A stretch of 64,000 nucleotides of DNA from positions 1 to 64,000 of the forward strand of contig NZ_FOMZ01000019.1 of the NCBI RefSeq assembly GCF_900112765.1, given 5' to 3'. A program made the translations under genes and the position numbers. The notes under the pieces were generated by a model. It made no database searches, was not told the origin of the DNA, and was given only the letters and a program-made list of their open reading frames with translations. This stretch comes from Actinopolyspora alba (GTDB lineage: Bacteria > Actinomycetota > Actinomycetes > Mycobacteriales > Pseudonocardiaceae). This document shows positions 29,587 through 50,526 of this stretch, in pieces; the first letter of the stretch is position 1; each line of letters opens with the position of its first letter.

Positions 29587-29850
29587 ATGAACCGTATCGA
29601 GTCAGTCGCGAACGTCCAGCTGCCCGACGCGCACGACGGCGCGGTCAGGTCGTTGGACACCACCGGCTCCACCGCCCCCGTGCTCACGGCCGCGGCCATC
29701 ACCGCCGCGGCGGTCGTGTGCTTCGCGGCTGGTGTCGCGTCCGACGCGGTGGAGAGCGGCTCCGGTTCCTATGCCGCCTCCACCGGCCAGGACCCGACCG
29801 GCATGTCCAGCGGGGAGCTGCTGCAACGGCGTACCGCTCTGCTGGGCTGA
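29587..29850 (+). CDS. Putative RiPP precursor peptide 1
   Basis: The 87-residue peptide begins MNRIESVANVQLPDA. It has an acidic N-terminal half that could be a leader, and a hydrophobic Ala/Val-rich stretch at 31-56 (PVLTAAAITAAAVVCFAAG) with its only Cys at 45. A Ser/Gly-rich part and the C-terminal box GMSSGELLQRR (72-82) follow. ATG 29587 follows GGAG at the right distance; ATG 29575 is less likely. A related peptide is encoded at 36962, with the same MNRIE start, PVLTAA and GMSxGxL box. Between them lie maturation-type and export genes. A strong hairpin follows the gene, as is usual after highly expressed precursor genes. Product class and cleavage site are not known. Confidence 0.7.
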   Translation: MNRIESVANVQLPDAHDGAVRSLDTTGSTAPVLTAAAITAAAVVCFAAGVASDAVESGSGSYAASTGQDPTGMSSGELLQRRTALLG

Positions 29851-29859
29851 GTCGCCTTT

Positions 29860-29883
29860 CGGGGTACCCACCAGGGTACCCCG
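29860..29883 (+). terminator. Hairpin after precursor gene 1 (attenuator-like)
   Basis: CGGGGTACCC and GGGTACCCCG pair perfectly around ACCA, followed by TCTCTCCCC rather than a run of T. Lying between a precursor gene and its operon, it probably acts as a partial terminator that keeps enzyme levels below precursor level. Confidence 0.65.
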
Positions 29884-29940
29884 TCTCTCCCCTCCAGGAA
29901 CAGCACGACCCCCGGAACGGAACGAGCCGAAGGACCGACA

Positions 29941-30837
29941 TTGGTGCACGAACCCGGACACGAGGATGGCTTCGACGCGGAGGGGCTCGAGGCGACGCTG
30001 GAGAACGTCGAGCGGCTGACCGCGTTCGGCACCCTGATCTCCTCCCTGGAGTACCTGGCCGCGGGAAAGAGCTTCGCCGACGACGACCTGCTGAGCTGGG
30101 ACGTGGCACGAACCCGGCACAAGGCGCTCGCGGGAAGGGTCGGTGATCTGCTCACCCCGCTGATGAAGTCCCCCGGGATCAACGTGGTCTTCGCCGCACG
30201 CGCGGCCGGCTCGATCGTGCTGCTCGTACCGCGCGCACCGTCAGCGGCCAAAACGACCGCGACGGCGGTGCTGACGGCTTCGAACTACGCGCTCCACCTG
30301 CGGACCCCGTACGGATCGGACGGTTCGGAGCACATATCGATGATCACCTACACCTCGTTGCTCGCGAGCAGACTCGCCCGTTCCGACGAGCGCGCCCAGC
30401 AGGCCTGCATGCACTTCATCGCACTGCAGTCCTGCCTGTCCTACGGTGTCGCGGGTATCTCCAAACTGGTCTCGCCCGTCTGGCGCAACGGAACCGCCGT
30501 GCGCGACATCTTCCGCACCCACATGTACGGGCACAGCCGGGTCTACGAACTGCTCAAGAGCAAACCCTGGGCCGCTCGCCTGCTGGCCTGGGTGACCATC
30601 ACCGGCGAGACCGGCTTCCCGTTGGTACTGGTCGCGCCGAAGCCGGTGGCGCGCGGGATCCTCGCCTCCGGACTGAGCTTCCACGGCGGCAACGCGGTGT
30701 TCATGGGGCTGAACCGTTTCCTCTGGGCGTTTCTGGGGACCTACCCCGCGGTGGCTTACACCTCCAGGAATCTGGGGCCGATCCGCGGCCGCTCGAAATC
30801 ACGGCTCGTCGCCCGCCTGACCGGTTCCAAGAGGTGA
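29941..30837 (+). CDS. HTTM-type membrane protein
   Basis: The 298-residue protein has about four to five hydrophobic segments after a soluble N-terminal 80 residues: VVFAARAAGSIVLLVPRA, LQSCLSYGVAGISKLVSPVW, ITGETGFPLVLVAP and a C-terminal AFLGTYPAVAYT. The segment SYGVAGISKLVSPVWRNGTAVR resembles the HTTM (vitamin K-dependent carboxylase-like) domain found in SdpB of the Bacillus Sdp toxin system. Start is TTG 29941 or GTG 29944, behind AAGGA. It overlaps the ABC gene (GTGA). In context it would be a membrane factor for maturation of the small peptides. This is inferred from analogy. Confidence 0.7.
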   Translation: MVHEPGHEDGFDAEGLEATLENVERLTAFGTLISSLEYLAAGKSFADDDLLSWDVARTRHKALAGRVGDLLTPLMKSPGINVVFAARAAGSIVLLVPRAPSAAKTTATAVLTASNYALHLRTPYGSDGSEHISMITYTSLLASRLARSDERAQQACMHFIALQSCLSYGVAGISKLVSPVWRNGTAVRDIFRTHMYGHSRVYELLKSKPWAARLLAWVTITGETGFPLVLVAPKPVARGILASGLSFHGGNAVFMGLNRFLWAFLGTYPAVAYTSRNLGPIRGRSKSRLVARLTGSKR

Positions 30838-32681
30838 TCCCGTTGTCGGCCGAGCAAAGCGGAGCTTCGCTGCGAGTACGGGATCTGGTTCGTCCCTACC
30901 GCGGTATTCTGACCGTGGCGATCGCGCTCGGTGTCGTCGCCGCTCTCGCCTCACTGGCACAACCGATGGGGATCGGCTGGCTGGTCGACACCGTGGGACG
31001 GGACGGCGGGCTGTGGTCACCGATCGCGCTGCTGATCGGGTTGTTCTGCCTCGACGCGTTCGTCGGAGGACTGCAGAGCTACCTCGTCGGGCGCACCGGG
31101 GAATCGGTGGTGCGGGACGTCCGCTTCACCCTGACCGGGAGACTGCTGCGAGCCACCCGGCGCGAGCACGAGGAACGACCGAGCGGGGACCTGCACGCGC
31201 GGGTGGTCACCGACACCTCGCTGCTGAAGGCGGCCCTCACGCAGAGCCTGGCGACCATGGTGGTCAGCGCGCTGATGGTGCTCGGCGGCATCCTCATCAT
31301 GGTGGTGCTGGACCCGCTGCTGCTCGGCCTGACGCTGCTGTCGCTGTCGGTCGCGGCAGCGGTCACTTTTCTGCTCGCCAGGAGACTGCGCGGCGCGGCA
31401 CAACTCAACCGCGGCCGCGTTGGGGCCCTGGGTGCCGACCTGAACCGGGCGCTGTCCGCGATAACGACGATCAAGGTCTCCCGCGCCGAGGAGCGCGAGC
31501 AGCGACGCCTGGGAACCAGAATGGACGAGGCGTACCGCACCGGTCTCGGCGTGACGAAGTTGAACGCCATGCTGGCCCCCACGGTCAGCGTCGGGCTGCA
31601 GATCTCCTTCGCCGTGGTGTTCGCGGTCGGGATGAGCCGGGTCGCGACAGGGGGCATGAGCATCGCAGAGTTCACCAGTTTCGTGCTCTACCTGTTCTAC
31701 CTGATCACCCCGCTGGTGACCGTCTCGACCGCGCTGGGGCAGCTGCAGCAGGGACTGGCAGCGATCACGCGGCTGGACGAGGTGCTGCGGATCGGCCAGG
31801 AGGACGGGTCCGTGGCCGAGGGGTCCGTGGCCGAGAGCTCCGGCGGCGAGACCGGCACGGGCAACACCACCACCGGCGCGGGAACGCTGGCGAGGTTCGA
31901 GGACGTGCGGTTCGGCTACGGAACCGGCCCGGAAGTGCTGCACGGGATGACGTTCGACATACCGCGCAGCGGACTCACCGCCCTCGTCGGCCCCTCCGGT
32001 TCGGGGAAGTCCACGATCCTCACGCTGCTGACCAGGTTCGACCGCCCCGATTCGGGAACCGTCACACTGGACGGCACCGACGTCGGCGAGCTGGAGCTGC
32101 CCGAACTGCGCGGCCGGGTCGGCTACGTGCAGCAGGATCCCGCGATCCTCTCCGGAACCGTCGAGGAGAACATCCGCTACGCCAATCCGGACGCGAGCCG
32201 GGCGGAACTGGACGAGGCGGTTCGGCTGGCCGATCTGGAAGACGTGATCGCCGCGCTGCCGGACGGCATGAGCACCGAGGTGGGCCAGCACGGCAGCAAG
32301 CTCTCCGGCGGCCAGCGACAGCGCGTCGCGATCGCGAGGATGCTGCTCACGAACCCGGACATGCTGCTGCTGGACGAGGCCACGGCGCAGCTGGACTCCA
32401 ACTCCGAGAACGCGTTGCGCGACACCATCCACGGCATAGCCGAACACCGCGCCGTCGTGGCGATCGCCCACCGAATGTCCACAGTGATCGAGGCGGATCG
32501 GATTCTCGTGGTCGAGGGCGGCAGTATCCGCGCGCGGGGCACCCACGAGGAACTGCTGGCCACCGACGAGCTCTACCGGACGCTGGTCAGGACCGACATC
32601 TCCGACGAGGAGCGGCAGCGGGCCGATTCGTCGGCCGAAGAAACGGATACACCGCGGCTCATGAGTTCGAAAGGCGCGTGA
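30834..32681 (+). CDS. ABC exporter, fused membrane and ATPase domains
   Basis: The 615-residue half-transporter has six membrane helices in residues 20-310 and a nucleotide-binding domain from about 350. The latter carries Walker A GPSGSGKST, Q-loop GYVQQDPAIL, signature LSGGQRQR, Walker B MLLLDEATAQLD and switch His in AIAHRMS. There is no N-terminal C39 peptidase domain, so the leader must be removed by another enzyme. An acidic Gly/Ser/Thr linker at about 322-350 separates the domains. It sits inside the peptide cluster and is the obvious exporter. The start could also be TTG 30843. Confidence 0.9.
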   Translation: MIPLSAEQSGASLRVRDLVRPYRGILTVAIALGVVAALASLAQPMGIGWLVDTVGRDGGLWSPIALLIGLFCLDAFVGGLQSYLVGRTGESVVRDVRFTLTGRLLRATRREHEERPSGDLHARVVTDTSLLKAALTQSLATMVVSALMVLGGILIMVVLDPLLLGLTLLSLSVAAAVTFLLARRLRGAAQLNRGRVGALGADLNRALSAITTIKVSRAEEREQRRLGTRMDEAYRTGLGVTKLNAMLAPTVSVGLQISFAVVFAVGMSRVATGGMSIAEFTSFVLYLFYLITPLVTVSTALGQLQQGLAAITRLDEVLRIGQEDGSVAEGSVAESSGGETGTGNTTTGAGTLARFEDVRFGYGTGPEVLHGMTFDIPRSGLTALVGPSGSGKSTILTLLTRFDRPDSGTVTLDGTDVGELELPELRGRVGYVQQDPAILSGTVEENIRYANPDASRAELDEAVRLADLEDVIAALPDGMSTEVGQHGSKLSGGQRQRVAIARMLLTNPDMLLLDEATAQLDSNSENALRDTIHGIAEHRAVVAIAHRMSTVIEADRILVVEGGSIRARGTHEELLATDELYRTLVRTDISDEERQRADSSAEETDTPRLMSSKGA

Positions 32682-33707
32682 ATGGGCAAGTCATCAGCGA
32701 TGTGGGCGGGCGGAATCGGGCTGCTCGCCGGAATCGGCCTCGTGGGGGGAAGCTGCTACCAGGAGCTGATGCAACGCCGGGACCGCGAGTGGTCCCACCC
32801 TCCCGGCGAGCTCGTCGAGGTGAACGGGCATCTCCTTCACCTGCGCACCGAGGGCATGCGGGAACACGGCCCCACCGTCGTGTTCGAGAACGGCATGACC
32901 TGCCCCAGCCAGGAGTGGGAGTGGATCGCGCCGCGCATCGCCGAGCACACCGGGACGCTGCGCTACGACCGCCCCGGCAACGGCTTCAGCGATCCCACAC
33001 CCCACCCGCGCACAGCCGACCGGATGGTCGCCGAACTCGAAACCGCCATCGAGCTGTCCGGTGCACCGGGGCCGTACATCCTGGTCGGACATTCCTTCGG
33101 CGGCCTGCTCGTGCGGCACTTCGCCCACCGGAACCCGGGACGAACGGCGGGTGTGGTGCTGGTCGACGCGACGCACCCGGAGGAACTCGAACGTTCCCCG
33201 CGACAACAGCGCGGACTGCCGTGGCTCGAACAGACCATGTACACGTGGTGGGCCAAGGCACGGCTCGGCCTGCTGCGGCACAGCAGGATGGACAGCCCAC
33301 TGGACGAGCTCCCCTCGACAGCGGCCACCGCGGTCCGCGAGCGGATGAGCACTCCCGGAGCGTGGCGGGCGGCGCTGCGCGAGCTGCACGCCTGGCGGGA
33401 CTCGATACAGCACGAGACGAGAGGGCTGCCGCTGCCCGGCGGATGCGCGCTGTCGGTGGTGACCGCGGGCAAGCAGATCAGCAACGATCCCGTGCACGGT
33501 CAGCTGCAGCGCGACCTCGCCGAACTTTCCGAAGAATCCAGTCACACGGTCGTCGACGACGCCGACCACTACACGCTCGTGAGCTCGCCGGAGCACGCCG
33601 AGCGGGTGGTCCGGGTCATCGAGCTCATGGCGCGGGACAGCCGCGTGGGGTCGATCGACGGGCCGCCGGAACGAACCACAACCACCGCCGAGAGAAGTGA
33701 TCCGTGA
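32682..33707 (+). CDS. Membrane-anchored alpha/beta hydrolase
   Basis: The 341-residue protein has an N-terminal membrane helix (residues 5-24, MWAGGIGLLAGIGLVGGSC) and an alpha/beta-hydrolase domain. The nucleophile elbow is GHSFGGLL, the oxyanion region is VFENGMTCPSQEWEW, and the catalytic His lies in VVDDADHYTLV. It follows the ABC exporter directly and overlaps the next gene by four bases. A membrane-anchored hydrolase of this kind is one of the described components of linaridin maturation (CypH/LinH), as I recall; here it may act in modifying or cleaving the peptides. The role is inferred. Confidence 0.75.
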   Translation: MGKSSAMWAGGIGLLAGIGLVGGSCYQELMQRRDREWSHPPGELVEVNGHLLHLRTEGMREHGPTVVFENGMTCPSQEWEWIAPRIAEHTGTLRYDRPGNGFSDPTPHPRTADRMVAELETAIELSGAPGPYILVGHSFGGLLVRHFAHRNPGRTAGVVLVDATHPEELERSPRQQRGLPWLEQTMYTWWAKARLGLLRHSRMDSPLDELPSTAATAVRERMSTPGAWRAALRELHAWRDSIQHETRGLPLPGGCALSVVTAGKQISNDPVHGQLQRDLAELSEESSHTVVDDADHYTLVSSPEHAERVVRVIELMARDSRVGSIDGPPERTTTTAERSDP

Positions 33708-34297
33708 TGACAGGACGAACACTGCTGCGCACCGCGCTGTACGGCGTTTTCGGTTCCTGGCTCGTCGGTACGGTCCTGTGTCAGGATCCGTTCCGGCGCG
33801 AGGACAGGATCCGTCGGCTCGACCAGTTCAACCTGATCTTTCCCGACTGGCGGTTCTTCGCACCGAACCCCGGTATCCACGACTATCACCTGCTCTACCG
33901 GGACACCCTGGCGTCCGGCGAGGTCACCGAGTGGTCGGAGATCGGCCACATCGAGGAGCGCAAACCGCACCACATCGTGTGGCACCCCCATCGCCGCCTG
34001 GAGAAGACGCTGTTCGACATCGTCGCGGAAATCCTGCGATTCAGCGGCGAGAGCGAGGCCAAACGGGACATGGCCCTGACCGTCCCGTACCTCACCCTGC
34101 TCAACTACATAACCCACCGCTACCCGCACGCGCCGAACGCGCGGAGCACGCAGTTCCTCGTCGCCGCGTCCGGAGGATACGAGCAGAGCGAGGAACCGAC
34201 CATGCTCTTTCTCTCCGAGAGCCACCGGCTCGAACGGGGACACCGTGAATCGGATGGAGAACCCGAACGAATTCACGCAGAGAGGATGGGAACGTGA
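33704..34297 (+). CDS. SdpA-like membrane-associated protein
   Basis: The 197-residue protein has one N-terminal membrane helix (LLRTALYGVFGSWLVGTVL) followed by the motif FPDWRFFAPNPGIHDYHLLYRD. A WxFFxPNP-type motif next to an HTTM protein recalls SdpA, which works with the HTTM protein SdpB to mature the Bacillus SDP toxin. The rest is polar and mixed. It overlaps both neighbours by four bases (GTGA at each end), so it is embedded in the operon. ATG 33707 is an alternative start. Sequence similarity to SdpA is weak and should be treated as a hypothesis. Confidence 0.6.
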   Translation: MMTGRTLLRTALYGVFGSWLVGTVLCQDPFRREDRIRRLDQFNLIFPDWRFFAPNPGIHDYHLLYRDTLASGEVTEWSEIGHIEERKPHHIVWHPHRRLEKTLFDIVAEILRFSGESEAKRDMALTVPYLTLLNYITHRYPHAPNARSTQFLVAASGGYEQSEEPTMLFLSESHRLERGHRESDGEPERIHAERMGT

Positions 34298-34974
34298 TCG
34301 TACTCATCGACAGACAGGGCGAGATCCCGGCGATCAGACTCAACGAGACGATCAGGACGACCGTCGGTATCGAGCGTGTCGAGTATCCGGACGCGCACGA
34401 GGACTTCCTCGCCAAGGCCGAGCGGCTGCGTCCCAGGATCGGCGTGGTCAGCGCCGATCGGGCCGATCTCGACATCGAACGCTTCACCGAACGGGTGCCG
34501 GGCTGGAACGAGTCGGGGGGATTGATCGTGATCGCCTCCTCGGAGGAGCGGCAGGCGGCGGGATTCGCGCTGCGGTGCGGCGCCAGGGGTGCGCTGTCCT
34601 CCGAATCGACGGAGGAGGAGATCATCGCCGCGTTGTTCTCCGTCCGGGTGGGGCACCCGTTCGCCCCTCCGAAGCTGGTCACCGACATGCATTCGATGGT
34701 CGGGACGCTGCTGTGCGCCCCGGAGCGGACCAACACCGGATGCAGCCTGACCGAGCGGGAGTGGGAAGTGCTCAAGTTGTTGGCATTCGGCCACTCCAAC
34801 GAGGGAATCGCCGGTCAGCTGTGCATCAGTACCGCGACCGTTCGATCCCACGTGCTGCACATTCTTCGCAAGATGCGGGTCCGCAACCGTTCGCAGGCCG
34901 TGGCCATCGCCTACGGGTTGTACACCACGATCCCCCACGAGCCGACCAGTCCGCTCGACGCGCAGGCGGTGTGA
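34294..34974 (+). CDS. LuxR-type response regulator with atypical receiver domain
   Basis: The 226-residue protein has a degenerate receiver-like N-terminal domain and a NarL/LuxR helix-turn-helix at about 151-208 (LTEREWEVLKLLAFGHSNEGIAGQ, then ISTATVRSHVLHILRKM). The acidic pocket usually found after the first strand is replaced (MIVLIDRQGEIP), and the expected phospho-acceptor position reads VVSADRAD. Phosphorylation is therefore doubtful; it may bind a ligand or work constitutively. No sensor kinase is nearby. GTG start, overlapping the upstream stop. It is the likely cluster-specific regulator. Confidence 0.8.
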   Translation: MIVLIDRQGEIPAIRLNETIRTTVGIERVEYPDAHEDFLAKAERLRPRIGVVSADRADLDIERFTERVPGWNESGGLIVIASSEERQAAGFALRCGARGALSSESTEEEIIAALFSVRVGHPFAPPKLVTDMHSMVGTLLCAPERTNTGCSLTEREWEVLKLLAFGHSNEGIAGQLCISTATVRSHVLHILRKMRVRNRSQAVAIAYGLYTTIPHEPTSPLDAQAV

Positions 34975-34975
34975 G

Positions 34976-35368
34976 ATGACCGAATCCCGTTCCGGGGGCG
35001 CGCAGCCCCCTTACCTGATCTTCGACGGGGACTGCGGCTTCTGCAGCCGCGTGATCGAACTGCTGGGCAGGTGGGTCACTCACCCGGCCGTCGTGGCCAG
35101 CTGGCAGACACTCGATCTGGATCGGTTCGGTGTCACGCGGGAGCGGGCGAACCACGAGATCCTCTGGATCGACACCGACGGCACGGTCTCCGGCGGTTCC
35201 GTCGCTTTCGGACGATACTTCGCGGCGGTGGGGGGTCGATTCCGGCCACTGGCTTTTCTGCTGCTGCACCAACCGACCCGATGGGTCGCGGCACGCCTCT
35301 ACGAACTCGTCGCGCGCAACAGGCACCGCATGCCGGGGGGCACGGCTTCGTGCTCCCTGCCGCGGTGA
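34976..35368 (+). CDS. DCC-family thiol-disulfide oxidoreductase (DUF393)
   Basis: The 130-residue protein carries the defining motif FDGDCGFCSR (CxxC at about residues 21-24) near the N-terminus and the DUF393 pattern VAFGRYFAAVGGRFRPLAFLL. Proteins of this family are predicted thiol-disulfide oxidoreductases and are often fused to or next to HTTM domains, as here. One precursor has a single Cys and the other has none. It may therefore act on another partner or a flavin enzyme rather than form disulfides in the product. Confidence 0.85.
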   Translation: MTESRSGGAQPPYLIFDGDCGFCSRVIELLGRWVTHPAVVASWQTLDLDRFGVTRERANHEILWIDTDGTVSGGSVAFGRYFAAVGGRFRPLAFLLLHQPTRWVAARLYELVARNRHRMPGGTASCSLPR

Positions 35369-35492
35369 GCGACGCGTTTCCGGGAGGGGCGTCGCGAACG
35401 AACGGGCAGCGAGCACCGGGCAACGAGCGCGGGGCAACGAGCACCGGGCAGCGAAATCAGGACACGAACCGGCCGGTACGGAGGCGACAACG

Positions 35493-36752
35493 GTGGTCGA
35501 CAGGGCAGCGGTGATCGACAGGGCAGCCGAGGCGGAATTCGACGTCGTGGTCATCGGCGGCGGGCCCGCGGGGGCCAGTACCGCCGGGCTGCTCGCGCGG
35601 TCGGGTCACCGCGTGGCGGTACTCGAACGTGAGCGCTTCCCGCGCTATCACGTGGGTGAATCGTTGATCACCGGAATGCTCGACATAATCGAGGAGCTCG
35701 GGCTGACGGAGCGCCTCGACCGGATGGGATTCGAGCGCAAGTACGGCCTCAGCCTGATCTGGGGGAAGGAGCGCGGGCTCTGGGACATCAAGTTCGCCGA
35801 GGGCGGCCCCTACGAGTACTCCTACCACGTCCGGCGGGACGAGTTCGACGAGCTGCTGCTGACCAGGGCCGCCGAGCTGGGGGCGACCGTGGAGTTCGAG
35901 GCCACGGTCAAGGGACCGGTCGAAGCGGACGGCGAGGTCACCGGGGTGGAGTACACGACCCCGGACGGCGGCAGGCACGTCGTGGGGGCACGCTTCGTGG
36001 TCGACGCCTCGGGGCAGTCCAGGACCGTCGCCCGGCACTACGCCGAGCAGCGGTGGCACGAGGACCTGAAGAACCTCGCCGTCTGGAACTACTTCACCAA
36101 CTGCGGGCGCCTTCCCGACGACCAGCGCGGCAACATCCTGGTGGAGCGGGTTTCCGACCACGACGGCTGGTTCTGGGCGATCCCGCTCGGCGAGGACCGG
36201 CTCAGCGTCGGCTACGTCTCCCCCACCGGACAGCTGCGGGACACCTCGCTAACACCGGACGAGCTGTTCACGGACCGCATGCGGCACACCGAGAGGTTGG
36301 CCGAGCTGCTGAGCGACGCGGAGCCGGTCAGCCGGTTCCGCACCGCCCGGGACTGGTCCTACGTGGCCGAACGGCTGCACGGTCCGGGCTGGGTGAGCGT
36401 GGGCGACGCGTCCGGATTCATCGACCCGCTGCTGTCCACCGGGGTGTGCCTGGGAATTCTGAGCGCGAGCCCGCTGGCACAGGCGCTGGACACCGCGCTG
36501 CGTGATTCCGAGAGAACGGAGAGCGCACTGCGGTGGTACGAGAATGGAATACGCGAGTTCCTGCTGGGAATGACCGAGTACGTTCGTTTCTTCTACGACG
36601 GACAACGGGACCGGGAGGATTACATGCAGCGGGCCGCGAAAATGGCCGACCCGGACACCTTCGTTTCCGATCGATCCGGATTCGCGGCCGTCATAGCCGG
36701 AACGACGGGGCTCGCACCCGCCTTCGAGAACGCGACTCCCGCCGACCTGTGA
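35493..36752 (+). CDS. Flavin-dependent halogenase-like oxidoreductase
   Basis: The 419-residue protein starts at GTG 35493 behind GGAGG. The FAD-binding GxGxxG motif is GGGPAGAS (22-29). FPRYHVGESL follows (49-58), typical of flavin-dependent halogenases. The WxWxIP motif, a hallmark of that family, is present as GWFWAIPL (225-232), and DASGFIDPLLSTGVCLG holds the second FAD site. K83 in GFERKYG lies where phenolic halogenases keep their catalytic Lys. Related hydroxylases and reductases share much of this, so halogenation is plausible but not proven. No flavin reductase gene is beside it. It closes the operon and is followed by a strong terminator. Confidence 0.8.
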   Translation: MVDRAAVIDRAAEAEFDVVVIGGGPAGASTAGLLARSGHRVAVLERERFPRYHVGESLITGMLDIIEELGLTERLDRMGFERKYGLSLIWGKERGLWDIKFAEGGPYEYSYHVRRDEFDELLLTRAAELGATVEFEATVKGPVEADGEVTGVEYTTPDGGRHVVGARFVVDASGQSRTVARHYAEQRWHEDLKNLAVWNYFTNCGRLPDDQRGNILVERVSDHDGWFWAIPLGEDRLSVGYVSPTGQLRDTSLTPDELFTDRMRHTERLAELLSDAEPVSRFRTARDWSYVAERLHGPGWVSVGDASGFIDPLLSTGVCLGILSASPLAQALDTALRDSERTESALRWYENGIREFLLGMTEYVRFFYDGQRDREDYMQRAAKMADPDTFVSDRSGFAAVIAGTTGLAPAFENATPADL

Positions 36753-36780
36753 CCCCATTCGCACGACTGAAAAACACCGG

Positions 36781-36822
36781 GTCCGAGCGAGCGCGAAACG
36801 ACTGTTTCGCGCTCGCTCGGAC
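36781..36822 (+). terminator. Strong hairpin terminator after the halogenase-like gene
   Basis: A perfect 19-bp stem (36781-36799 with 36804-36822) closes on the loop GACT. No T-run follows, common in high-GC actinomycetes. It separates the operon from precursor gene 2, which must then have its own promoter in 36823-36940. Confidence 0.85.
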
Positions 36823-36961
36823 ATCCATGCGCACTGAACCGCAGGCCACGAAAATCAGCAATTTGGTGGTTGGTCCCGCGACGACGGGAAACTAACCTGA
36901 AACAGGTGGACATCGCAGGGTGTTCACAATTTGTTCGCCTTATTTCCGGAGGAGCAGACGA

Positions 36962-37231
36962 ATGAATCGCATCGAGAACGCCGCAACTCAGCAGGTGACG
37001 GCTTCCGCCGGGGCCATCGAGCCGATGGACAGCGTCGAGGGCGTCTCCCCCGTGCTGACGGCCGCCGTCGCCGCCGGTGCCGTCGCCGCCACGGCCGCCG
37101 CCTTCGCCGCGGGCAACATGGTCACCGACTACGTCGGCGCCGGCTACACCGCCAAGCACGACGGCAGTGAGCTCTCCGGCATGTCCGTGGGTGACCTCGT
37201 GAACTCGCGTCGCGAGGCCATGTCCCACTGA
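36962..37231 (+). CDS. Putative RiPP precursor peptide 2
   Basis: The 89-residue peptide begins MNRIENAATQQVTASAG. A hydrophobic Ala/Val-rich segment at 30-52 starts PVLTAAVAAGAVAATAAAF, then come DYVGAGYTAKHDGSE and the C-terminal box LSGMSVGDLVNSRR. It aligns end to end with the peptide at 29587 (MNRIE, PVLTAA, GMSxGxL and a basic pair). There is no Cys, which excludes lanthionine or disulfide chemistry for this one; Thr/Ser, Tyr and His remain as possible modification sites. GGAGGAG seven bases upstream of the ATG is a near-perfect ribosome site, so strong expression is expected. It lies beyond the operon terminator as a separate unit. Confidence 0.7.
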   Translation: MNRIENAATQQVTASAGAIEPMDSVEGVSPVLTAAVAAGAVAATAAAFAAGNMVTDYVGAGYTAKHDGSELSGMSVGDLVNSRREAMSH

Positions 37232-43247: not shown

Positions 43248-44492
43248 GTGATGATGAATGTAGGAAGTGACATGGCTGGTGACGATGTCGCGGAGGACGG
43301 CGCACGGCCCGAAGCGCTGCGCGCGGCCATGGTCGAGGAATTGCGCCAGATGGGCGCACTGCGCAGCGATCCGGTCGAGCGGGCTTTCCGGGTGGTGCCT
43401 CGGCATCTGTTCTCCCCGGAGGCACCGCTGATGGAGTCCTACGGGGTCAATCGTTCGGTGGTGGTCAAGCGGGACGACGACGGGATGGCGTTGTCGACCG
43501 TGTCAGCCCCCAGCATGCAGGCCAACATGCTGGAACAGACCGATCTCCAGGCGGGTATGCGGGTGCTGGAGATCGGCTCCGGCGGGGTCAACGCGGCGAT
43601 GCTCGCCGAACTCGTCGGCCCGGAGGGTCACGTGACCACGGTCGACATCGACGCGGACGTGACCGAGCGCGCCCGGCGCGGATTGGCCGAGTCCGGCTAC
43701 GACCAGGTGAGGGTGTTCCGCGACGACGCTGAACACGGGGTGGTCGAGCAGGCGCCCTACGACCGGATTCTGGTCACCGTCGGGGTGTGGGACATCCCGC
43801 CCGCCTGGTTGGATCAGCTCGCCGAGGGCGGCAGGTTGATCGTCCCCCTTCGGTTGCAAGGGGTGATGCGGTCGATCGCGCTGGAACGCGCGGATGATCG
43901 GCTGACCAGCCGGAGCGTGCACCCGTGCGGGTTCGTGCCGGTGCAGGGCGCGGGTGCCCGTGAGGAGCACGTGGCGCTGCTCGACGAGGACGTGGGGTTG
44001 CGGTTCGACGAGCAGCAACGCCTCGACACCGCCGGGCTCAGCGAGGCGCTGGCCACGCCTCCCGAAGAACGGTGGTCGGGAGTCACCATCGGCTCCCAGG
44101 AGATGATCGACGACCTGACCCTGTGGCTGACCACCACGTTGCCCGGCTGCGGCATGCTGACCGCGAAACAAGCCGCCGTCGATCGCGGGCTCGTGGGTCG
44201 CCCCGCCCGCCGGGGAGTTCCGGCAGTGGTCCACGGGGACAGCTTCGCCTACCGCGCCACGGTGCGCGCCGCCGAAGACGACCGGCACGAACTCGGCGTA
44301 CACGGTCACGGCCCTCGCGGCGCCGAACTCGCCGAGCAGTACGTCGACCTGATGCGCCAGTGGGACCGGCAGCACCGCCACGGCCCCGGCGCCGTCATCG
44401 AGATCCACCCCGCCCACACCCCCGATGAACGGGTGAACCACGGGTTCGTGCTCGACAGGAACCACACCCGTGTCGTGATCTTCTGGCCCTGA
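43248..44492 (+). CDS. FxLD-system lanthipeptide methyltransferase
   Basis: The 414-residue enzyme has a protein-L-isoaspartate O-methyltransferase-like core: RAFRVVPRHLFSPEAPL, TVSAPSMQANMLEQ, then the SAM-binding VLEIGSGGVNAAMLAEL and VTTVDIDADVTERA. A longer C-terminal domain is specific to the FxLD lanthipeptide systems. Related LanS enzymes methylate an Asp in the modified peptide, leading to a succinimide or isoaspartate. The precursor 62 bases downstream has Asp39 in its core. GTG 43248 and ATG 43251 and 43254 are all usable behind AAGGGAAG. Confidence 0.85.
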   Translation: MMMNVGSDMAGDDVAEDGARPEALRAAMVEELRQMGALRSDPVERAFRVVPRHLFSPEAPLMESYGVNRSVVVKRDDDGMALSTVSAPSMQANMLEQTDLQAGMRVLEIGSGGVNAAMLAELVGPEGHVTTVDIDADVTERARRGLAESGYDQVRVFRDDAEHGVVEQAPYDRILVTVGVWDIPPAWLDQLAEGGRLIVPLRLQGVMRSIALERADDRLTSRSVHPCGFVPVQGAGAREEHVALLDEDVGLRFDEQQRLDTAGLSEALATPPEERWSGVTIGSQEMIDDLTLWLTTTLPGCGMLTAKQAAVDRGLVGRPARRGVPAVVHGDSFAYRATVRAAEDDRHELGVHGHGPRGAELAEQYVDLMRQWDRQHRHGPGAVIEIHPAHTPDERVNHGFVLDRNHTRVVIFWP

Positions 44493-44554
44493 TCCTTCCT
44501 GGTCAGGACCAGAAAACCGAAATATTCGAACACCACGAAAGGAGTGTGTCCGGC

Positions 44555-44719
44555 ATGTCCACACCCACCACTCTGGAGTCGTCGAGTACCGAGCCGGACT
44601 CGGACTTCGACCTCGACGTCACCGTCGTCGCCGCCGCGGAGGTCGCCGAGCTGCGGAGTCCCACCGAGGACAACTGTGGGCAGACCTGCGAGAGCGCCTG
44701 CCCGCAGACCGGCTGCTGA
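44555..44719 (+). CDS. FxLD-family class I lanthipeptide precursor
   Basis: The 54-residue peptide starts MSTPTTLESSSTEPDSDFDL. The leader contains the defining F-D-L-D motif at 18-21, the binding site for LanB. The core follows from about 33 and carries four Cys (41, 45, 49, 54) with Ser/Thr at 35, 37, 44, 47 and 52, so up to four lanthionine rings are possible. Asp39 is the candidate site for the methyltransferase. AAGGAG lies ten bases before the ATG. A strong hairpin follows. The leader cleavage site is not evident, and no protease gene is in the cluster. Confidence 0.9.
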   Translation: MSTPTTLESSSTEPDSDFDLDVTVVAAAEVAELRSPTEDNCGQTCESACPQTGC

Positions 44720-44744
44720 TCGCGTGATCGCAGGATGACTCCTT

Positions 44745-44794
44745 CGGCCCAGCCACGAGTACCACCGGGCGTGGTCCTCGTGGCTGGGCCGTTT
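44745..44794 (+). terminator. Hairpin between lanthipeptide precursor and lanB (attenuator-like)
   Basis: A perfect 15-bp stem pairs 44745-44759 with 44777-44791 and is followed by TTT. It lies between the precursor and LanB, where partial termination is typical of lanthipeptide operons. Confidence 0.8.
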
Positions 44795-44815
44795 CCCCGC
44801 AACAGGAGTGAACGG

Positions 44816-47800
44816 ATGACGTATGCCTGCGCGGACGCGGCTCTCCTGCGAGTGTCCGCCCAATCCTCGACGGAACCTCTTCCTCCGTGGCCGGACCTGT
44901 CCGGATCATCGAGCGAGCCGCTGCGGCGGTGGCTGCACGCTGTCTGGCACCAGGACGGGATCGCCGAGACGATCGCCGAAGCCAGCCCGGTGTTGGCCGA
45001 TCGGGTGCGGCAGCTCCTCGACGGCCGGCAGCGAGAGAGCCGCGACATTCGACGTGTCGTCCTCGCCGTGACCCGTTACGTGCTCCGCGCCCGGAGTCGA
45101 GCGACTCCGTTCGGTTTGTTCGCCGGTATCGCTCCTGCCCACGCCGGCTCCGTGACGAACCTGCACTGGGGTGGGGATCACCGTGCTCACGCGCGGGTCG
45201 AGGCCGGGTGGATCGACCACGTGATCACCTCGTTGGAGCGGTGTCGAGAGCTCCGGTGGCGTCTCCGCGTGATGGCCACCAACCTCGCCGAGGTCCGCGA
45301 CGACCGGCTCGTGATCACTCACCAGCCACACCCGGCCCACGAGGGACCCACCGAGATCTCGATGCGGCACACCCGCGCCGTCGACACCGCCCTACGAACT
45401 GCCGACACCCCTGTCCCGGTAACCGCCCTGACAGCCAGGCTGGCACACGAGTTCCCCAGAACCTCGCTGTCGGTGATCGAACACGTGGTGGACGAGCTGA
45501 TCGAGCAACGCGTGCTGATCAGCAACCTGCGTCCTCCCATGACCAGCACAGATCCAGTGAGTTATGTGGTGGCCGAACTCGACACCCTCGATGCGGCGGA
45601 ACTACCGGAAGAGACGGCCGAACTGATTCACGAGCTCCGTGCGGTGCGGGCCGACCTCGCCCGGCACAACGCCACGACGCCTCCGGCCGATCCCGGCGCG
45701 CTGCGCAACTCCCTGTCGACACGGATGTCGACCCTCGCACCCATCGACAAGCCCGTCATGGTGGACCTGCGCACCGACTGCTCGGTGAGCCTTGCCGACC
45801 CGGTCTGGCGGGAAGCCGAATCCGCCGTGGACGTGCTCACGCGCCTGAGCCCCCACCCGCAGGGAACCCCCGAATGGGCCGACTACCACCACCGCTTCCT
45901 CGAACGCTACGGCCTCGGCGCGCACGTACCCGTCCGCGATCTGCTCGAGCCCGACACCGGGCTCGGCTACCCTGCCGGATACCGGGGTTCCCTGCTGACC
46001 GTGGGACAGCAGGGCGTCTCCGAGCGGGACGCGCGGCTGCTCGCCCTGGCGCAACGGGCCGCCCTCGACCAGCACCGGGAGATCCACCTCGACGAGAACA
46101 CGGTGTCCGCCCTGGCCACCCCTTCCGAGAACCTGCGGCCTCGCCCGCACTGCGAACTGTCGTTTCGTGTCCACGCCGCGAGTCCCGCAGCCATCGATCG
46201 CGGTGAGTTCGAACTGGCGGTTGCCGGAATCTCCCGTACGGCGGGCACCCTGACCGGACGTTTCCTGGACATGCTCACCGAGCCCGAACGTAGACGGCTG
46301 ATGGAGACCTACACGCGGCTTCCCACGCTGAACCGAGAGGCCCTTCCCGTGCAGCTCTCCTGCCCACCGCTACAGACCCGTACCCACAACGTCGCCCGCA
46401 GCCCCGGCGTGCTGGGCGAGGTGCTGTCCCTGGGTGAGCACCGCGTGAACCGGATCGCTGTCGACGACCTCGCCGTGACCGGTGACCTCGATCGCCTCTA
46501 CCTCGTCTCACTCACCCACGGGCAGGTGGTTGAGCCGATCGTGGTCAACGCCGTGGAGTTCACCCACCACACTCACCCCCTGGCCCGGTTTCTGACCGAG
46601 ATCGCCACGGCCCGCAGCCCGATCCTCGGCCCCTTCGGCTGGGGCCACGCAGCCGGGCAGCTGGCGTACCTGCCGCGCGTGCGCTACCGGCACAGCATCC
46701 TGACCCCGGCCCAGTGGAGCCTCACCTCCCGCGATCTGCCGCCCAACGCCGACGGGTCTCAATGGCCCGAAGCGCTGGCCGCCTGGCGAGACCGGTGCCA
46801 CGTCGCCGACGAGGTGTACCTCGGCGACGGCGATCAACGGCTGCACCTGAACCTGGACGAGCCCACCCACCAACAGCTGCTGCGCACCGAGCTCGACCGC
46901 AGCGGAGACCTCACCCTGCGAGAAGCACCCCCGCCCGGTGCCTTCGACTGGATCGACGGCCGCGCTCACGACATCGTGGTCCCGCTGGCCTCCACAGCCG
47001 GCCCGGCGAGCGGACCGGCGGCGCGCACGCGCTCCCCCGACATCGTGCACGGCCGCGAGCACGGGCACCTGCCCGGAGCCGGGACCTGGTTGTACGCCCA
47101 GCTCCACTGCCACCCCGACCGCCAGACACCCATCCTCACCAAGCATCTGCCCCGACTACTGGACCAGTGGAACACCCCACCGGAGTGGTGGTTTCTGCGC
47201 TACGCCGATCCCCACCCGCACTTGCGGCTGCGCATCCGACTGAACCACCCCGACGAATTCGGAACCGCCGCCACCCGTGTCGGCACCTGGGCTGATGACC
47301 TGCGTCAGCGCGGCCTGCTGAGCGGAATGACCCTGGAAACCTACCGCCCCGAAACCGGCCGGTTCGGCGGCGGGGAAGCCATGCGTGCGGCCGAATCCGT
47401 CTTCGCCGCCGACTCCGCGGCCGCGCTCGCCCAACTGGAACACACCCAAGCGGGCACGGCCGACGAGGCGATCACGGCCGCGAGCATGGTCGACCTGGTG
47501 ATTTCCTATCTCAGCAGCACCGAGTGTGGAGCGCGGTGGCTGATCGAGCACGTACCCCGCACCCACACACCCGCCCCGGACCGGCAGGTGCGCGACCAGG
47601 CGGTCGACCTCGCCAATCCTCACAACGGGTGGGCGGCGCTATGCGGAATCCCCGGGGGTGAGGCCATCGCCGCTTCCTGGCAGCGCCGCCAACAGGCACT
47701 GGCCGTCTACCGAGACACGATCACCTCCGCCGAGGGGACAACCCCAACGGCGGTCTTGCGTGACTTCCTACACCTGCACCACGCGCGCGTGACCGGCATC

Positions 47801-47887
47801 GACCCCGACCACGAACGCCAGTGTTTGCACCTGGCCCGCGCCGCCGCCTTGAGCATCACCAGTCGCCGCGACCGAGGAGCCGCATGA
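44816..47887 (+). CDS. Lantibiotic dehydratase, full-length LanB
   Basis: The 1023-residue enzyme dehydrates Ser/Thr of the precursor using glutamyl-tRNA. The N-terminal glutamylation domain (about 1-740) includes RSRATPFGLFAGIAP (about 90-105), HPQGTPEWADYHHRFLERYG and SPGVLGEVLSLGEHRVNRIA. The C-terminal elimination domain starts at about 753 (GAGTWLYAQLHCHPD) with WWFLRYADPHPHLRLRIRL. ATG 44816 follows AGGAG; the open frame back to 44735 lies inside the upstream hairpin and is not used. It overlaps LanC by four bases. Because this LanB already has an elimination domain, the separate LanB-C-like protein downstream is notable. Confidence 0.93.
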   Translation: MTYACADAALLRVSAQSSTEPLPPWPDLSGSSSEPLRRWLHAVWHQDGIAETIAEASPVLADRVRQLLDGRQRESRDIRRVVLAVTRYVLRARSRATPFGLFAGIAPAHAGSVTNLHWGGDHRAHARVEAGWIDHVITSLERCRELRWRLRVMATNLAEVRDDRLVITHQPHPAHEGPTEISMRHTRAVDTALRTADTPVPVTALTARLAHEFPRTSLSVIEHVVDELIEQRVLISNLRPPMTSTDPVSYVVAELDTLDAAELPEETAELIHELRAVRADLARHNATTPPADPGALRNSLSTRMSTLAPIDKPVMVDLRTDCSVSLADPVWREAESAVDVLTRLSPHPQGTPEWADYHHRFLERYGLGAHVPVRDLLEPDTGLGYPAGYRGSLLTVGQQGVSERDARLLALAQRAALDQHREIHLDENTVSALATPSENLRPRPHCELSFRVHAASPAAIDRGEFELAVAGISRTAGTLTGRFLDMLTEPERRRLMETYTRLPTLNREALPVQLSCPPLQTRTHNVARSPGVLGEVLSLGEHRVNRIAVDDLAVTGDLDRLYLVSLTHGQVVEPIVVNAVEFTHHTHPLARFLTEIATARSPILGPFGWGHAAGQLAYLPRVRYRHSILTPAQWSLTSRDLPPNADGSQWPEALAAWRDRCHVADEVYLGDGDQRLHLNLDEPTHQQLLRTELDRSGDLTLREAPPPGAFDWIDGRAHDIVVPLASTAGPASGPAARTRSPDIVHGREHGHLPGAGTWLYAQLHCHPDRQTPILTKHLPRLLDQWNTPPEWWFLRYADPHPHLRLRIRLNHPDEFGTAATRVGTWADDLRQRGLLSGMTLETYRPETGRFGGGEAMRAAESVFAADSAAALAQLEHTQAGTADEAITAASMVDLVISYLSSTECGARWLIEHVPRTHTPAPDRQVRDQAVDLANPHNGWAALCGIPGGEAIAASWQRRQQALAVYRDTITSAEGTTPTAVLRDFLHLHHARVTGIDPDHERQCLHLARAAALSITSRRDRGAA

Positions 47888-49092
47888 CCCACACCGCTAC
47901 ACAGGCTCTGGAAGCTGCCGCCGACATCGTCCACAACCTCGCGTACCCGGATCAGTTCGCCCGCACGGAAGCATCGGATCACTCCTTGGCCTCCGGTGCG
48001 GCCGGGATCTCTCTGCTGCACAGCGAACGCGCCGCCTCCGGCCACGACGACTGGGCGAGTGCCCACACCTGGCTGACCACCGCCCTCAGCGGTGACCTGT
48101 CCGCCGGAGACGAAGCCGGGCTGTTCTTCGGTGCCCCAGCGTGCGCCTTCGCAGCCCACTTCGCCACCCGCACACGCCCCGGCATACTCACCCGCGCCCT
48201 CTCCCAGCTCGACACGAGCATCTCGGAACTGACTCGCCGCCGCTTGGCCGCCGCCCACACCCGCATCGACCGCGGACACCTAGCAGCCTTCCGCGAGTAC
48301 GACCTCATGCGCGGACTCACCGGCATCGGGGCCTACCACCTGCGACGAAACCACCACGACAGCACTCGTGCCGTGCTGTCCTACCTGGTGCGCCTGACAC
48401 ACCCCGGGCCGGACGGGTTGCCAGGTTGGTGGGTCGACCACGCCCCGAGCCCCGACGATCCCGACCCGGCATTCACCCCCGGACACGCCAACCTCGGCAT
48501 GGCCCACGGCATCGCCGGACCACTCGCTCTGCTCGCCCAGGCAGCACGTCGCGGCATCACCGTGGCCGGACACTTCGACGCCCTCGACCGGGTCTGCGCC
48601 TGGCTCGACACCTGGCAACAACCCCACCCTGCAGGACCGTGGTGGCCCTACTGGATCACCCGCGCCCAGCTACGCGGCAACGCTTCCGTCGCGGGTCCGG
48701 GACGACCTTCGTGGTGCTACGGCACCCCAGGACTGGCCCGTGCCCAACAGCTCGCCGCCCTCGCCCTGAGAGACACCGCCCGCCAGCGCACCAGCGAAGC
48801 CGCGCTGCTCGGCTGCCTGACCGACCCGAAACAACGCAGCTCGCTCACCGAACCCGGCCTGTGCCACGGACTCGCCGGACTCCTACAAACCACCTGGCGC
48901 ATGGCCGAGGACGCTGTCATCGAAGACCTGGGTGAGCACCTTCCACTGCTGATCACCAGGTTGACCGAGCACCGGCACACGGACTCACCGGAATTTCTAA
49001 CCGGCGCCGCCGGCATAGCCCTCACCCTGCACACCACAACAGCCGCCAGCACCGATTCATGCGTATGGGACACGAGTCTCCTACTGAGCTGA
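47884..49092 (+). CDS. Lanthionine synthetase C-like cyclase
   Basis: The 402-residue LanC-type cyclase closes lanthionine rings. It shows the repeated GxxG helical-barrel motifs and the zinc ligands C278 (SWCYGTPG), C327 and H328 (GLCHGLAG), with the catalytic-region His in NLGMAHGIAGPLALL (about 203-217). ATG 47884 overlaps the lanB stop by four bases, giving tight coupling. Confidence 0.93.
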   Translation: MTHTATQALEAAADIVHNLAYPDQFARTEASDHSLASGAAGISLLHSERAASGHDDWASAHTWLTTALSGDLSAGDEAGLFFGAPACAFAAHFATRTRPGILTRALSQLDTSISELTRRRLAAAHTRIDRGHLAAFREYDLMRGLTGIGAYHLRRNHHDSTRAVLSYLVRLTHPGPDGLPGWWVDHAPSPDDPDPAFTPGHANLGMAHGIAGPLALLAQAARRGITVAGHFDALDRVCAWLDTWQQPHPAGPWWPYWITRAQLRGNASVAGPGRPSWCYGTPGLARAQQLAALALRDTARQRTSEAALLGCLTDPKQRSSLTEPGLCHGLAGLLQTTWRMAEDAVIEDLGEHLPLLITRLTEHRHTDSPEFLTGAAGIALTLHTTTAASTDSCVWDTSLLLS

Positions 49093-49104
49093 CAAGGACC
49101 ACGA

Positions 49105-50526
49105 ATGCTTCCCGACAGCACCACCCCCGGGCAACGAGCAGACTTCGACGGCGACCACGACTGCTGGCCACAGCTGCTGATCGAATGGACCGCCTGGGAC
49201 AACGCCGAAGTCGCCGCAGCACGACGGCTCCACCCGGCCCTGGCCACCGCCGAACGCGACGGCCGTCTCGACCAGTGGTTCTTCGTACGCAAACACCCGC
49301 ACTGGCGACTGCGACACCTCGGAGACACCACTTCCCGCACCTACCTGGCCCGAACCCTGGAGGGGCTGACCGCCACCGGCGAAGTGGCTTGGTGGGCTCA
49401 CGGCATCTACGAGCCGGAAACACCGGCCTTCGGCGGCGCGACTGCGATGACCATCGCCCACAGGCTGTTCCACGAGGACAGCCGCAACATCCTGGACTAT
49501 CTCTCCCGCCAGCACGCCGCCGAATCCTCGCGCGAACCGGGACGTCGGGAACTCGGCGTATTGCTGATCAGTGCTCTGCTCCGCGGCGCGGGCCTCGACT
49601 GGCACGAGCAGGGAGACGTGTGGAACCGCATCGCCCACCTGCGACGAACCAGCAACAACGCGCCAACCAACCACCAACCACCGATCACTCACCAACAGCG
49701 GCAGAACATGCAGCGGCTGATGACCGCCGACGCGGCACGCCTGTCCGAAAGCGGGCCGCTTGAACCGATCCGCAACTGGCTCGACGCGTTCGCCCGTACC
49801 GGACGCGAACTCGCCGAACACGCCCAACACGGACAACTCGAACGAGGACTACGCGTGGTACTGGCCCACCACGCGATTTTCGCCTGGAACCGCCTCGGAT
49901 TGTCCGCCCAGGAACAAAGAACGCTGTCCGAACGAGCGACCGAGGTCATCATGACCGACCACACGACAGAAATGCCTCGACCACCGATACCGGAATCAGG
50001 CGATGATGCCGCGAGGGGTTACACAACCAACCACGGAAAACCTCACGAGAGGAATCCGACAGCACGCACCGACCGCATGGTTTCCGCACCGACCGAACTC
50101 ATCGCCCGAGCTGTCATCCGTCGGAACGAACACATCCTGTTGGCGCATCAGATCGGGAAGGCATGGTCGTTTCTGCCCGGTGGGCATGTAGAGCCCGGCG
50201 AGCAGATCGAGACCGCGTTGCGTCGCGAGATCGCCGAGGAGCTCGGGACGACAGCCGAGATCACCGGATTCGTCGGTGCCGTCGAGCACGGCTACACCGA
50301 GAACGAGGTCACACACCACGAACTCAACCTGCTGTTCGACGTAACCCTCGATGCACCGGAACCGACAAGCCAGGAAAAACATCTCGAATTCCACTGGATA
50401 CCGCTGGACCAGATCGCCGAAACGAATGTTCGCCCGGCCAGCTTCAAAGACGCCCTGGTGACCGCTGAGGTTTCCGTCCCGTTCTGGCGCGGTCTCCCGA
50501 CAGGAACGTCATCATCCGTACGCTAA
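49105..50526 (+). CDS. LanB C-terminal-like (thiopeptide-type) protein fused to a NUDIX hydrolase
   Basis: The 473-residue protein has two domains. Residues 1-285 match the thiopeptide-type bacteriocin biosynthesis domain (SpaB_C/elimination-like): LLIEWTAWDNAEVAAARRLHP, WFFVRKHPHWRLRHLG, GRELGVLLISALLRGAGLDW. After a linker of about 45 residues, 325-465 are a NUDIX domain with a complete box GGHVEPGEQIETALRREIAE, continuing ELG. The frame is open throughout, with no internal ribosome site at Met 283 or Met 326, so a fusion is favoured over two genes. The first domain may give a second elimination or leader-binding function; the NUDIX substrate is unknown. Confidence 0.85.
   Translation: MLPDSTTPGQRADFDGDHDCWPQLLIEWTAWDNAEVAAARRLHPALATAERDGRLDQWFFVRKHPHWRLRHLGDTTSRTYLARTLEGLTATGEVAWWAHGIYEPETPAFGGATAMTIAHRLFHEDSRNILDYLSRQHAAESSREPGRRELGVLLISALLRGAGLDWHEQGDVWNRIAHLRRTSNNAPTNHQPPITHQQRQNMQRLMTADAARLSESGPLEPIRNWLDAFARTGRELAEHAQHGQLERGLRVVLAHHAIFAWNRLGLSAQEQRTLSERATEVIMTDHTTEMPRPPIPESGDDAARGYTTNHGKPHERNPTARTDRMVSAPTELIARAVIRRNEHILLAHQIGKAWSFLPGGHVEPGEQIETALRREIAEELGTTAEITGFVGAVEHGYTENEVTHHELNLLFDVTLDAPEPTSQEKHLEFHWIPLDQIAETNVRPASFKDALVTAEVSVPFWRGLPTGTSSSVR

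Follow-up and report, generated by a model that had tools for sequence, protein, structure and literature searches.

Which natural product is made where two small homologous peptides enclose a compact operon of membrane, transport and tailoring genes? This arrangement is found in Actinopolyspora alba (assembly GCF_900112765.1), within the first 64,000 nucleotides of contig NZ_FOMZ01000019.1, the whole stretch that was analysed here (the window). An earlier sequence-only reading had described a twin-precursor cluster resembling those of ribosomally synthesised and post-translationally modified peptides (RiPPs), in which the homologous peptides A and B flank a tight operon of seven genes; this is supported, and all nine genes lie where they had been placed (Table 1). 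That reading had also held that no known RiPP class fits, which was not borne out, and its hint of a linaridin, taken from the hydrolase and the exporter, proved right. Judged by sequence comparison, the locus is probably a RiPP cluster of the linaridin kind that encodes two distinct precursors, most likely a two-component linaridin.

The argument begins with three genes, encoding the HTTM membrane protein, the alpha/beta hydrolase and the SdpA-like (LinL-like) protein, which are hereafter called the trio. In direct tblastn comparisons these proteins matched those of locus L046 at E values of 5.5e-30 (HTTM, 31% identity), 1.7e-8 (hydrolase, 23%) and 1.3e-13 (SdpA-like, 28%). At L046 the trio has the same order as in the window and lies directly behind a small peptide with a GSTICLVC end, which NCBIfam identifies as CypA over its cut-off (1.5e-28); HTTM and hydrolase are there fused in one CypH-like frame of 617 amino acids, followed by a CypL-like protein of 188 amino acids, a flavoprotein, a methyltransferase and an ATP-binding cassette (ABC) ATPase. 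The L106 peptide is a second CypA (4.2e-18, over cut-off), and a trio also adjoins the L045 peptide, which matches linaridin_RiPP NF033402 over cut-off (3.5e-32). As the trio matches that of a curated linaridin cluster, the window HTTM, hydrolase and SdpA-like proteins are, by homology, the LinG, LinE and LinL counterparts, i.e., relatives of the linaridin core enzymes. For the protein starting at 33,704, for which a comparison with known families had been proposed, no family model passed its cut-off, yet the match to L046 identifies it as a LinL homologue.

Conservation was assessed in alignments of 33-35 sequences that included the type A linaridin enzymes. The HTTM protein has 16 invariant residues, K174, E222 and H247 among them, and LinL has nine invariant columns in 35 sequences (F51, F52, P54, P56, R66, R98, K101, D105 and Q150). 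In the hydrolase R97, H137, G140 and E234 are invariant, while S138 is kept in 32 of 35 relatives and H296 in 33 of 35. The predicted LinL structure (pLDDT 83) gave no clear match in the PDB. Placement among the vitamin K carboxylase-like pairs (HTTM with a lumenal domain) would require that LinL be folded like the lumenal domain of GGCX. Passages of the corynaridin paper (PMC9927463) name the same HTTM/hydrolase/LinL set and describe LinL/CypL as the linaridin marker gene. The window contains such a homologue, together with the HTTM (LinG) and hydrolase (LinE) genes that occur in linaridin clusters either separately or fused as CypH, and the exporter gene that is a further linaridin feature is present in the operon as an ABC permease-ATPase fusion.

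The peptides are tied to these enzymes in other genomes. Peptide B was searched for in 397 genomes of the order and at E ≤ 0.01 matched in 22, six of which hold a small free-standing open reading frame (ORF) of this kind (G000, G200, G282, G184, G174 and G390), and all six have the trio. Peptides occurring in most genomes without the operon, named by the sequence-only reading as what would refute it, were thus not seen. Thirteen of the remaining 16 matches lie in frames of at least 248 amino acids and three in frames of 141-197 amino acids; no trio was found at two of the latter loci (L034, L035), the third being in G099. The same-genus genome G200 has the full cluster (the A. mzabensis cluster, L029); its nine proteins are 86.9-98.9% identical to those of the window, the LinL-like protein 95%. 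Most codons that differ between window and L029 differ synonymously: peptide A shows 12 synonymous and five nonsynonymous changes (nonsynonymous rate dN 0.027, synonymous rate dS 0.185), and peptide B three and one. The neighbourhood comparison also found, in a genome of another family (G390, locus L033), two peptides flanking HTTM, ABC, hydrolase, SdpA-like, LuxR, DCC and FAD genes in the window order, so that the association of twin peptides and seven genes is more than chance. At E ≤ 1e-4, homologues of the LinL-like protein occur in 18 of the 200 genomes of the family and in 17 of the 394 of the class, and at E ≤ 1e-3 in six of the 396 of the phylum, where the window's genome is counted in each tally; the loci studied were chosen through these searches.

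HTTM and SdpA-like genes are also found apart from the cluster. A further HTTM fragment lies downstream of the A. mzabensis cluster (L029:18488-18841, minus strand), and a second HTTM and SdpA-like pair in the window's genome, on contig C41 (L049:7094-8419, minus strand), is accompanied by neither hydrolase nor precursor. There are 16 such hydrolase-less pairs among the fetched loci; in a profile comparison the SdpA-like members of these pairs matched the LinL-like proteins (2.7e-54). Genome G1218 carries both a double-trio cluster (L094) and the type A, cypemycin-like cluster L106.

Trios are generally preceded by precursors. Under a fixed rule, a precursor-like ORF was found within 1.5 kb upstream of 25 of 35 trios, against five of 35 stretches lying 3 kb further up and one of the 16 hydrolase-less pairs. 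By our own reading, at least two different precursors are present at 20 of 28 trio loci, the window and its near copy L029 included; five loci have a single precursor (L045, L046, L093, L106 and L109) and L047 has a weak pair. The fetched loci contain 5,215 small ORFs. When these were scanned with a profile of one precursor type (alpha, see below), 32 matched at E ≤ 0.1, including the nine on which the profile had been trained. Every one of the 32 was of precursor type and came from a trio cluster; the window peptides A (1.2e-8) and B (0.0029) were among them, as was the curated linaridin of L045 (0.077). Conversely, a profile built from three curated linaridins found trio precursors in seven of its eight further matches (best 8.2e-4). 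The hexapeptide PxxxTP (PVLATP, PVLGTP and others) was read in at least one precursor at 19 of 28 loci and was missing at the window, L029, L032, L033, L093 and L097. Window-type precursors have in common a C-terminal ELLxxR-like segment, which type A peptides are without. Tandem alpha precursors are present at L032:12241-12861 and L097:2910-4230, some with Thr runs after PVF (CTTSTTTATL, CTTTTTTAAA); these Thr-rich cores could be candidates for dehydration.

The evidence for two components is drawn chiefly from seven loci with two complete trios each (L030, L031, L032 and L094-L097). In the trio tree all seven first trios fall in one clade (100/100) and all seven second trios in another (100/99), and the window-type trios join the first-trio clade with a support of 93/95, which is under the star limit. 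Both precursor types, alpha and beta, are seen at six of the seven loci. In all six the alpha precursor is directly upstream of the first trio, and the beta precursor is either directly upstream of the second trio (L030, L032, L097) or between the trios (L031, L094, L095). Among nine loci with a single trio and a precursor pair, six sort into two types and one type is found in eight, at a four-cluster cut. These patterns indicate that two different precursors have been kept together through evolution in the double-trio relatives; the corresponding evidence is weaker for the single-trio loci and for peptide A of the window. Overall, the comparative case for two co-inherited components appears good in the relatives and weaker for the window itself.

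Several observations weigh against a two-component linaridin and are best considered together. Precursor type was assigned correctly for 15 of 15 peptides by profiles with the whole locus left out, but for alpha and beta labels and members that we had chosen ourselves, and one L097 alpha (3170) and one L094 beta-like ORF (10328) stand outside the 15. The branching order is identical within the first-trio and second-trio clades, and such mirrored trees are equally expected from plain vertical descent of both copies. The two-type split of the single-trio loci was not seen at two or three clusters, and no precursor was seen at L096 (both trios, on a short contig) or L120. By sequence, window-type peptides are tied only weakly to the curated precursors: in the alpha-profile scan the L045 linaridin reached no better than 0.077, and rows 33-40 contain five precursors (L046 at 0.54) and three ORFs that are not. 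Peptides A and B did not match the curated linaridin precursor models NF033752, NF033402 and NF033403 (NCBIfam, E ≤ 1), and no NCBIfam or Pfam precursor model passed its cut-off, so the proposed comparison with curated RiPP families found no home for them. Both read PVLTAA where the strict PxxxTP cleavage motif would be expected, and for this reason we file the window as an enzyme-defined linaridin variant and not as a canonical one. Furthermore, a single trio serves both peptides, and the fit of peptide A to the partner type is not clean. Peptide B is clearly beta (profile scores 69.7 for beta and 17.0 for alpha), whereas peptide A has a beta-like leader (16.6 beta, 2.3 alpha) and a core slightly toward alpha (28.8 alpha, 24.4 beta), the whole being nearer to beta (45.6 against 33.7). 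A leader adapted to a single trio may account for this mixture.

The likeliest alternative retains a linaridin-type cluster and takes the precursors for redundant substrates giving two independent products, i.e., a small library and not one agent. The shared trio and the beta-like leaders of the window peptides would suit it, as would the three to five precursors present in some relatives (L032, L097, L113 and L114). Against it, two trio lineages are maintained side by side at seven loci, with two precursor types at six, and the single-trio loci tend to the same division, albeit only at the four-cluster cut given above. We regard this alternative as possible but doubtful.

For the products of a two-component linaridin, their D-residues and a joint activity of the peptides, we infer the following course. 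The leaders (about residues 1-33) would bring peptides A and B to a membrane-bound LinG/LinE/LinL complex, which may epimerise residues of the hydrophobic segment that follows PVL from L to D, as LinHL reportedly does, and may also help to dehydrate Thr and Ser. Each window peptide offers two Thr but no Ser within the first 18 positions of that segment, with more Ser and Thr in the C-terminal parts; with few residues to dehydrate there, epimerisation fits better than dehydration. LinHL has been listed among hydrolase-family L-to-D epimerases (PMC10406935), and grmL has been described as indispensable and potentially epimerase-encoding (PMC10373908). The leader would then be cut near PVL and both peptides exported by the ABC protein; the halogenase-like enzyme and the DCC protein may make side-chain or redox adjustments, the LuxR regulator would control expression, and both mature peptides might act jointly on the membranes of competing bacteria.

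The genes are mostly spaced tightly, by 4-nucleotide overlaps, direct abutment or 1-nucleotide gaps, with wider gaps only between peptide A and HTTM (93 nucleotides), DCC and FAD (124) and FAD and peptide B (209). A GGAG stretch is found 5' of the ATG of both peptides. The two peptides are 39% identical to each other (BLASTP, E 2e-08 in a single comparison), a value that needs caution because both are Ala-rich. Pfam and NCBIfam recognise the ABC exporter, alpha/beta hydrolase, LuxR, DCC1-like and halogenase-group flavoenzyme families, and for the HTTM protein give weak LMF1 and SdpB matches alone. The flavin adenine dinucleotide (FAD)-dependent enzyme has as its best solved relative the 412-amino acid halogenase 8zop (5.7e-113), followed by 3e1t, which we take to be CndH (8.3e-60), and CmlS (3i3l, 1.4e-56). 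WxWxIP and an active-site lysine segment are the motifs of flavin halogenases, and the window enzyme carries WFWAIP and GFERKYG in alignment with 8zop. Among eight FAD genes WFWAIP and the GF..K.G segment are found together in three (window, L029 and L033); of the other five, the L095 gene shows just a WxWxIP string and the remaining four lack both segments. A DCC-like gene is within the cluster at the window, L029, L031, L033, L093 and L095, and further off at L044 and L100. A class I lanthipeptide cluster follows downstream (43248-50526, plus strand).

Table 1. Genes of the putative two-precursor linaridin cluster and of the downstream lanthipeptide cluster in the window
Feature	Position	Strand	Remarks
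Peptide A, precursor, 87 aa	29587..29850	+	leader to ...STAPVL, Ala/Val-rich stretch, conserved C-terminal SSGELLQRR segment
HTTM membrane protein	29944..30837	+	LinG-type half of LinH/CypH; kin to SdpB
ABC exporter, permease-ATPase fusion	30834..32681	+	LinT-like role presumed; no peptidase domain in Pfam
Alpha/beta hydrolase, N-terminal hydrophobic segment	32682..33707	+	LinE-type half of LinH/CypH
LinL/CypL homologue (SdpA-like, WRFFAPNP protein)	33704..34297	+	DUF5819 match under cut-off
LuxR/NarL-type regulator	34294..34974	+	Pfam
DCC1-like (DUF393) thiol-disulfide oxidoreductase	34976..35368	+	Pfam
FAD-dependent halogenase-like enzyme; start codon uncertain	35493..36752	+	WFWAIP and GFERKYG segments
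Peptide B, precursor, beta type, 89 aa	36962..37231	+	leader to ...GVSPVL, Ala-rich stretch, C-terminal SVGDLVNSRR segment
PCMT-type O-methyltransferase	43248-44492	+	class I lanthipeptide cluster
Cys-rich precursor with FDLD box	44546-44716	+	class I lanthipeptide cluster
LanB	44735-47887	+	class I lanthipeptide cluster; 7.5 kb downstream of peptide B
LanC	47821-49092	+	class I lanthipeptide cluster
Second LanB C-terminal domain fused to NUDIX	49105-50526	+	class I lanthipeptide cluster

Explanations outside the linaridins fare less well. A new RiPP class with no linaridin kinship would agree with the failure of every curated precursor model on the window peptides, and no cluster of this make-up was found in the literature searched, but the core trio is the one that curated linaridin clusters encode, and we think such a class improbable. 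Less credible still is an Sdp-like system, in which the HTTM and SdpA-like proteins would activate secreted peptides in the way that SdpC is activated by SdpB and SdpA. The likeness to Bacillus Sdp that had been pointed out is partly upheld: between the HTTM profile and Streptomyces SdpB there is a match over 100 columns (probability 96.8, E 2.9e-10), which at the level of profiles is homology of the HTTM domain, although the window HTTM scores 22.6 bits against the SdpB family TIGR04033, under its cut-off of 178.4. SdpA is like the LinL-like protein in having a hydrophobic segment at its N terminus and a WxFF motif, and on the Niallia sp. plasmid NZ_CP137637.1 (L130) a DUF393 (DCC-like) gene lies directly upstream of SdpA-SdpB. 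The SdpA half of the likeness gave no significant match: the SdpA model TIGR04034 finds nothing in the whole genome at E ≤ 1, and the resemblance of LinL to SdpA, which consists of WxFF followed by a stretch containing Arg, falls short of significance in profile comparisons (0.23 and 0.027 for A1; 0.028 and 0.022 for A4); no hydrolase gene occurs in the short Sdp stretches examined (1.1-3.5 kb). That the peptides are substrates of the LanB/LanC cluster in the same window, whose LanB gene qualifies the earlier statement that LanB is absent (true of this operon only), has next to no probability, since that cluster has its own Cys-rich precursor and no LanB or PCMT match (E ≤ 1e-5) was found in any of the 43 fetched neighbourhoods, which reach some kb, about 6 kb past peptide B in A. 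mzabensis.

Beyond this locus we can suggest, at somewhat short of an even chance, a family of two-component linaridins in which co-inherited hydrophobic peptides each have a dedicated epimerising LinG-LinE-LinL complex (shared in Actinopolyspora), act jointly and are halogenated in some members. This would be a two-component RiPP founded on a non-radical, membrane-bound epimerase. The earlier impression that the combination is new is supported within the literature searched, as a linaridin variant with twin precursors, duplicated trios and DCC and halogenase-like genes. A recurring two-precursor branch, some members of which have doubled enzyme sets, offers a natural test of enzyme-leader pairing; according to reviews, linaridin enzyme mechanisms are still largely open. 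Such clusters may also be a source of D-amino-acid peptides. On plasmid pGBA1, a named example, both peptides and LinL are annotated 'hypothetical protein'. A protein annotated in this way in RefSeq can now be tied to LinL, and clusters can therefore be found by the trio even without a match to a peptide model.

How, then, does the locus compare with known systems? Like the Sdp systems (SdpABC) it has an HTTM relative of SdpB with a small WxFF partner, and a DUF393 neighbour as in the one Niallia plasmid; unlike them, it shows no significant SdpA kinship and holds a hydrolase and an ABC exporter in the operon. The WxWxIP and lysine segments of its FAD enzyme are shared with the halogenases 8zop, 3e1t and CmlS. 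With the type A linaridins (cypemycin, grisemycin, salinipeptin) it has in common LinG and LinE (fused as CypH in type A) and LinL homologues in the same order, an ABC gene, and a precursor with leader and hydrophobic core. It differs from them in having no decarboxylase, methyltransferase or C-terminal GSTICLVC, in an HTTM gene that is set apart from the hydrolase gene by the ABC gene, and in two precursors with the conserved ELLxxR-like segment. The type B linaridins, e.g., legonaridin and corynaridin (crdG for HTTM, crdE for the hydrolase, crdL), likewise have separate HTTM and hydrolase genes and a LinL, and corynaridin is described in PMC9927463 as being without decarboxylase and methyltransferase, as is the window. 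However, the single precursor of corynaridin is Thr-rich and carries PxxxTP, and its cluster includes a short-chain dehydrogenase/reductase (SDR) gene, whereas the window has twin precursors reading PVLTAA, no SDR match, and added DCC and halogenase-like genes. Two-component lantibiotics of the lacticin 3147 kind use LanM, in contrast to LinG/LinE/LinL in the window, where no lanthionine chemistry would be expected; they are alike in their two different precursors, and the relatives of the window with two modification-enzyme sets find their parallel in LtnM1 and LtnM2.

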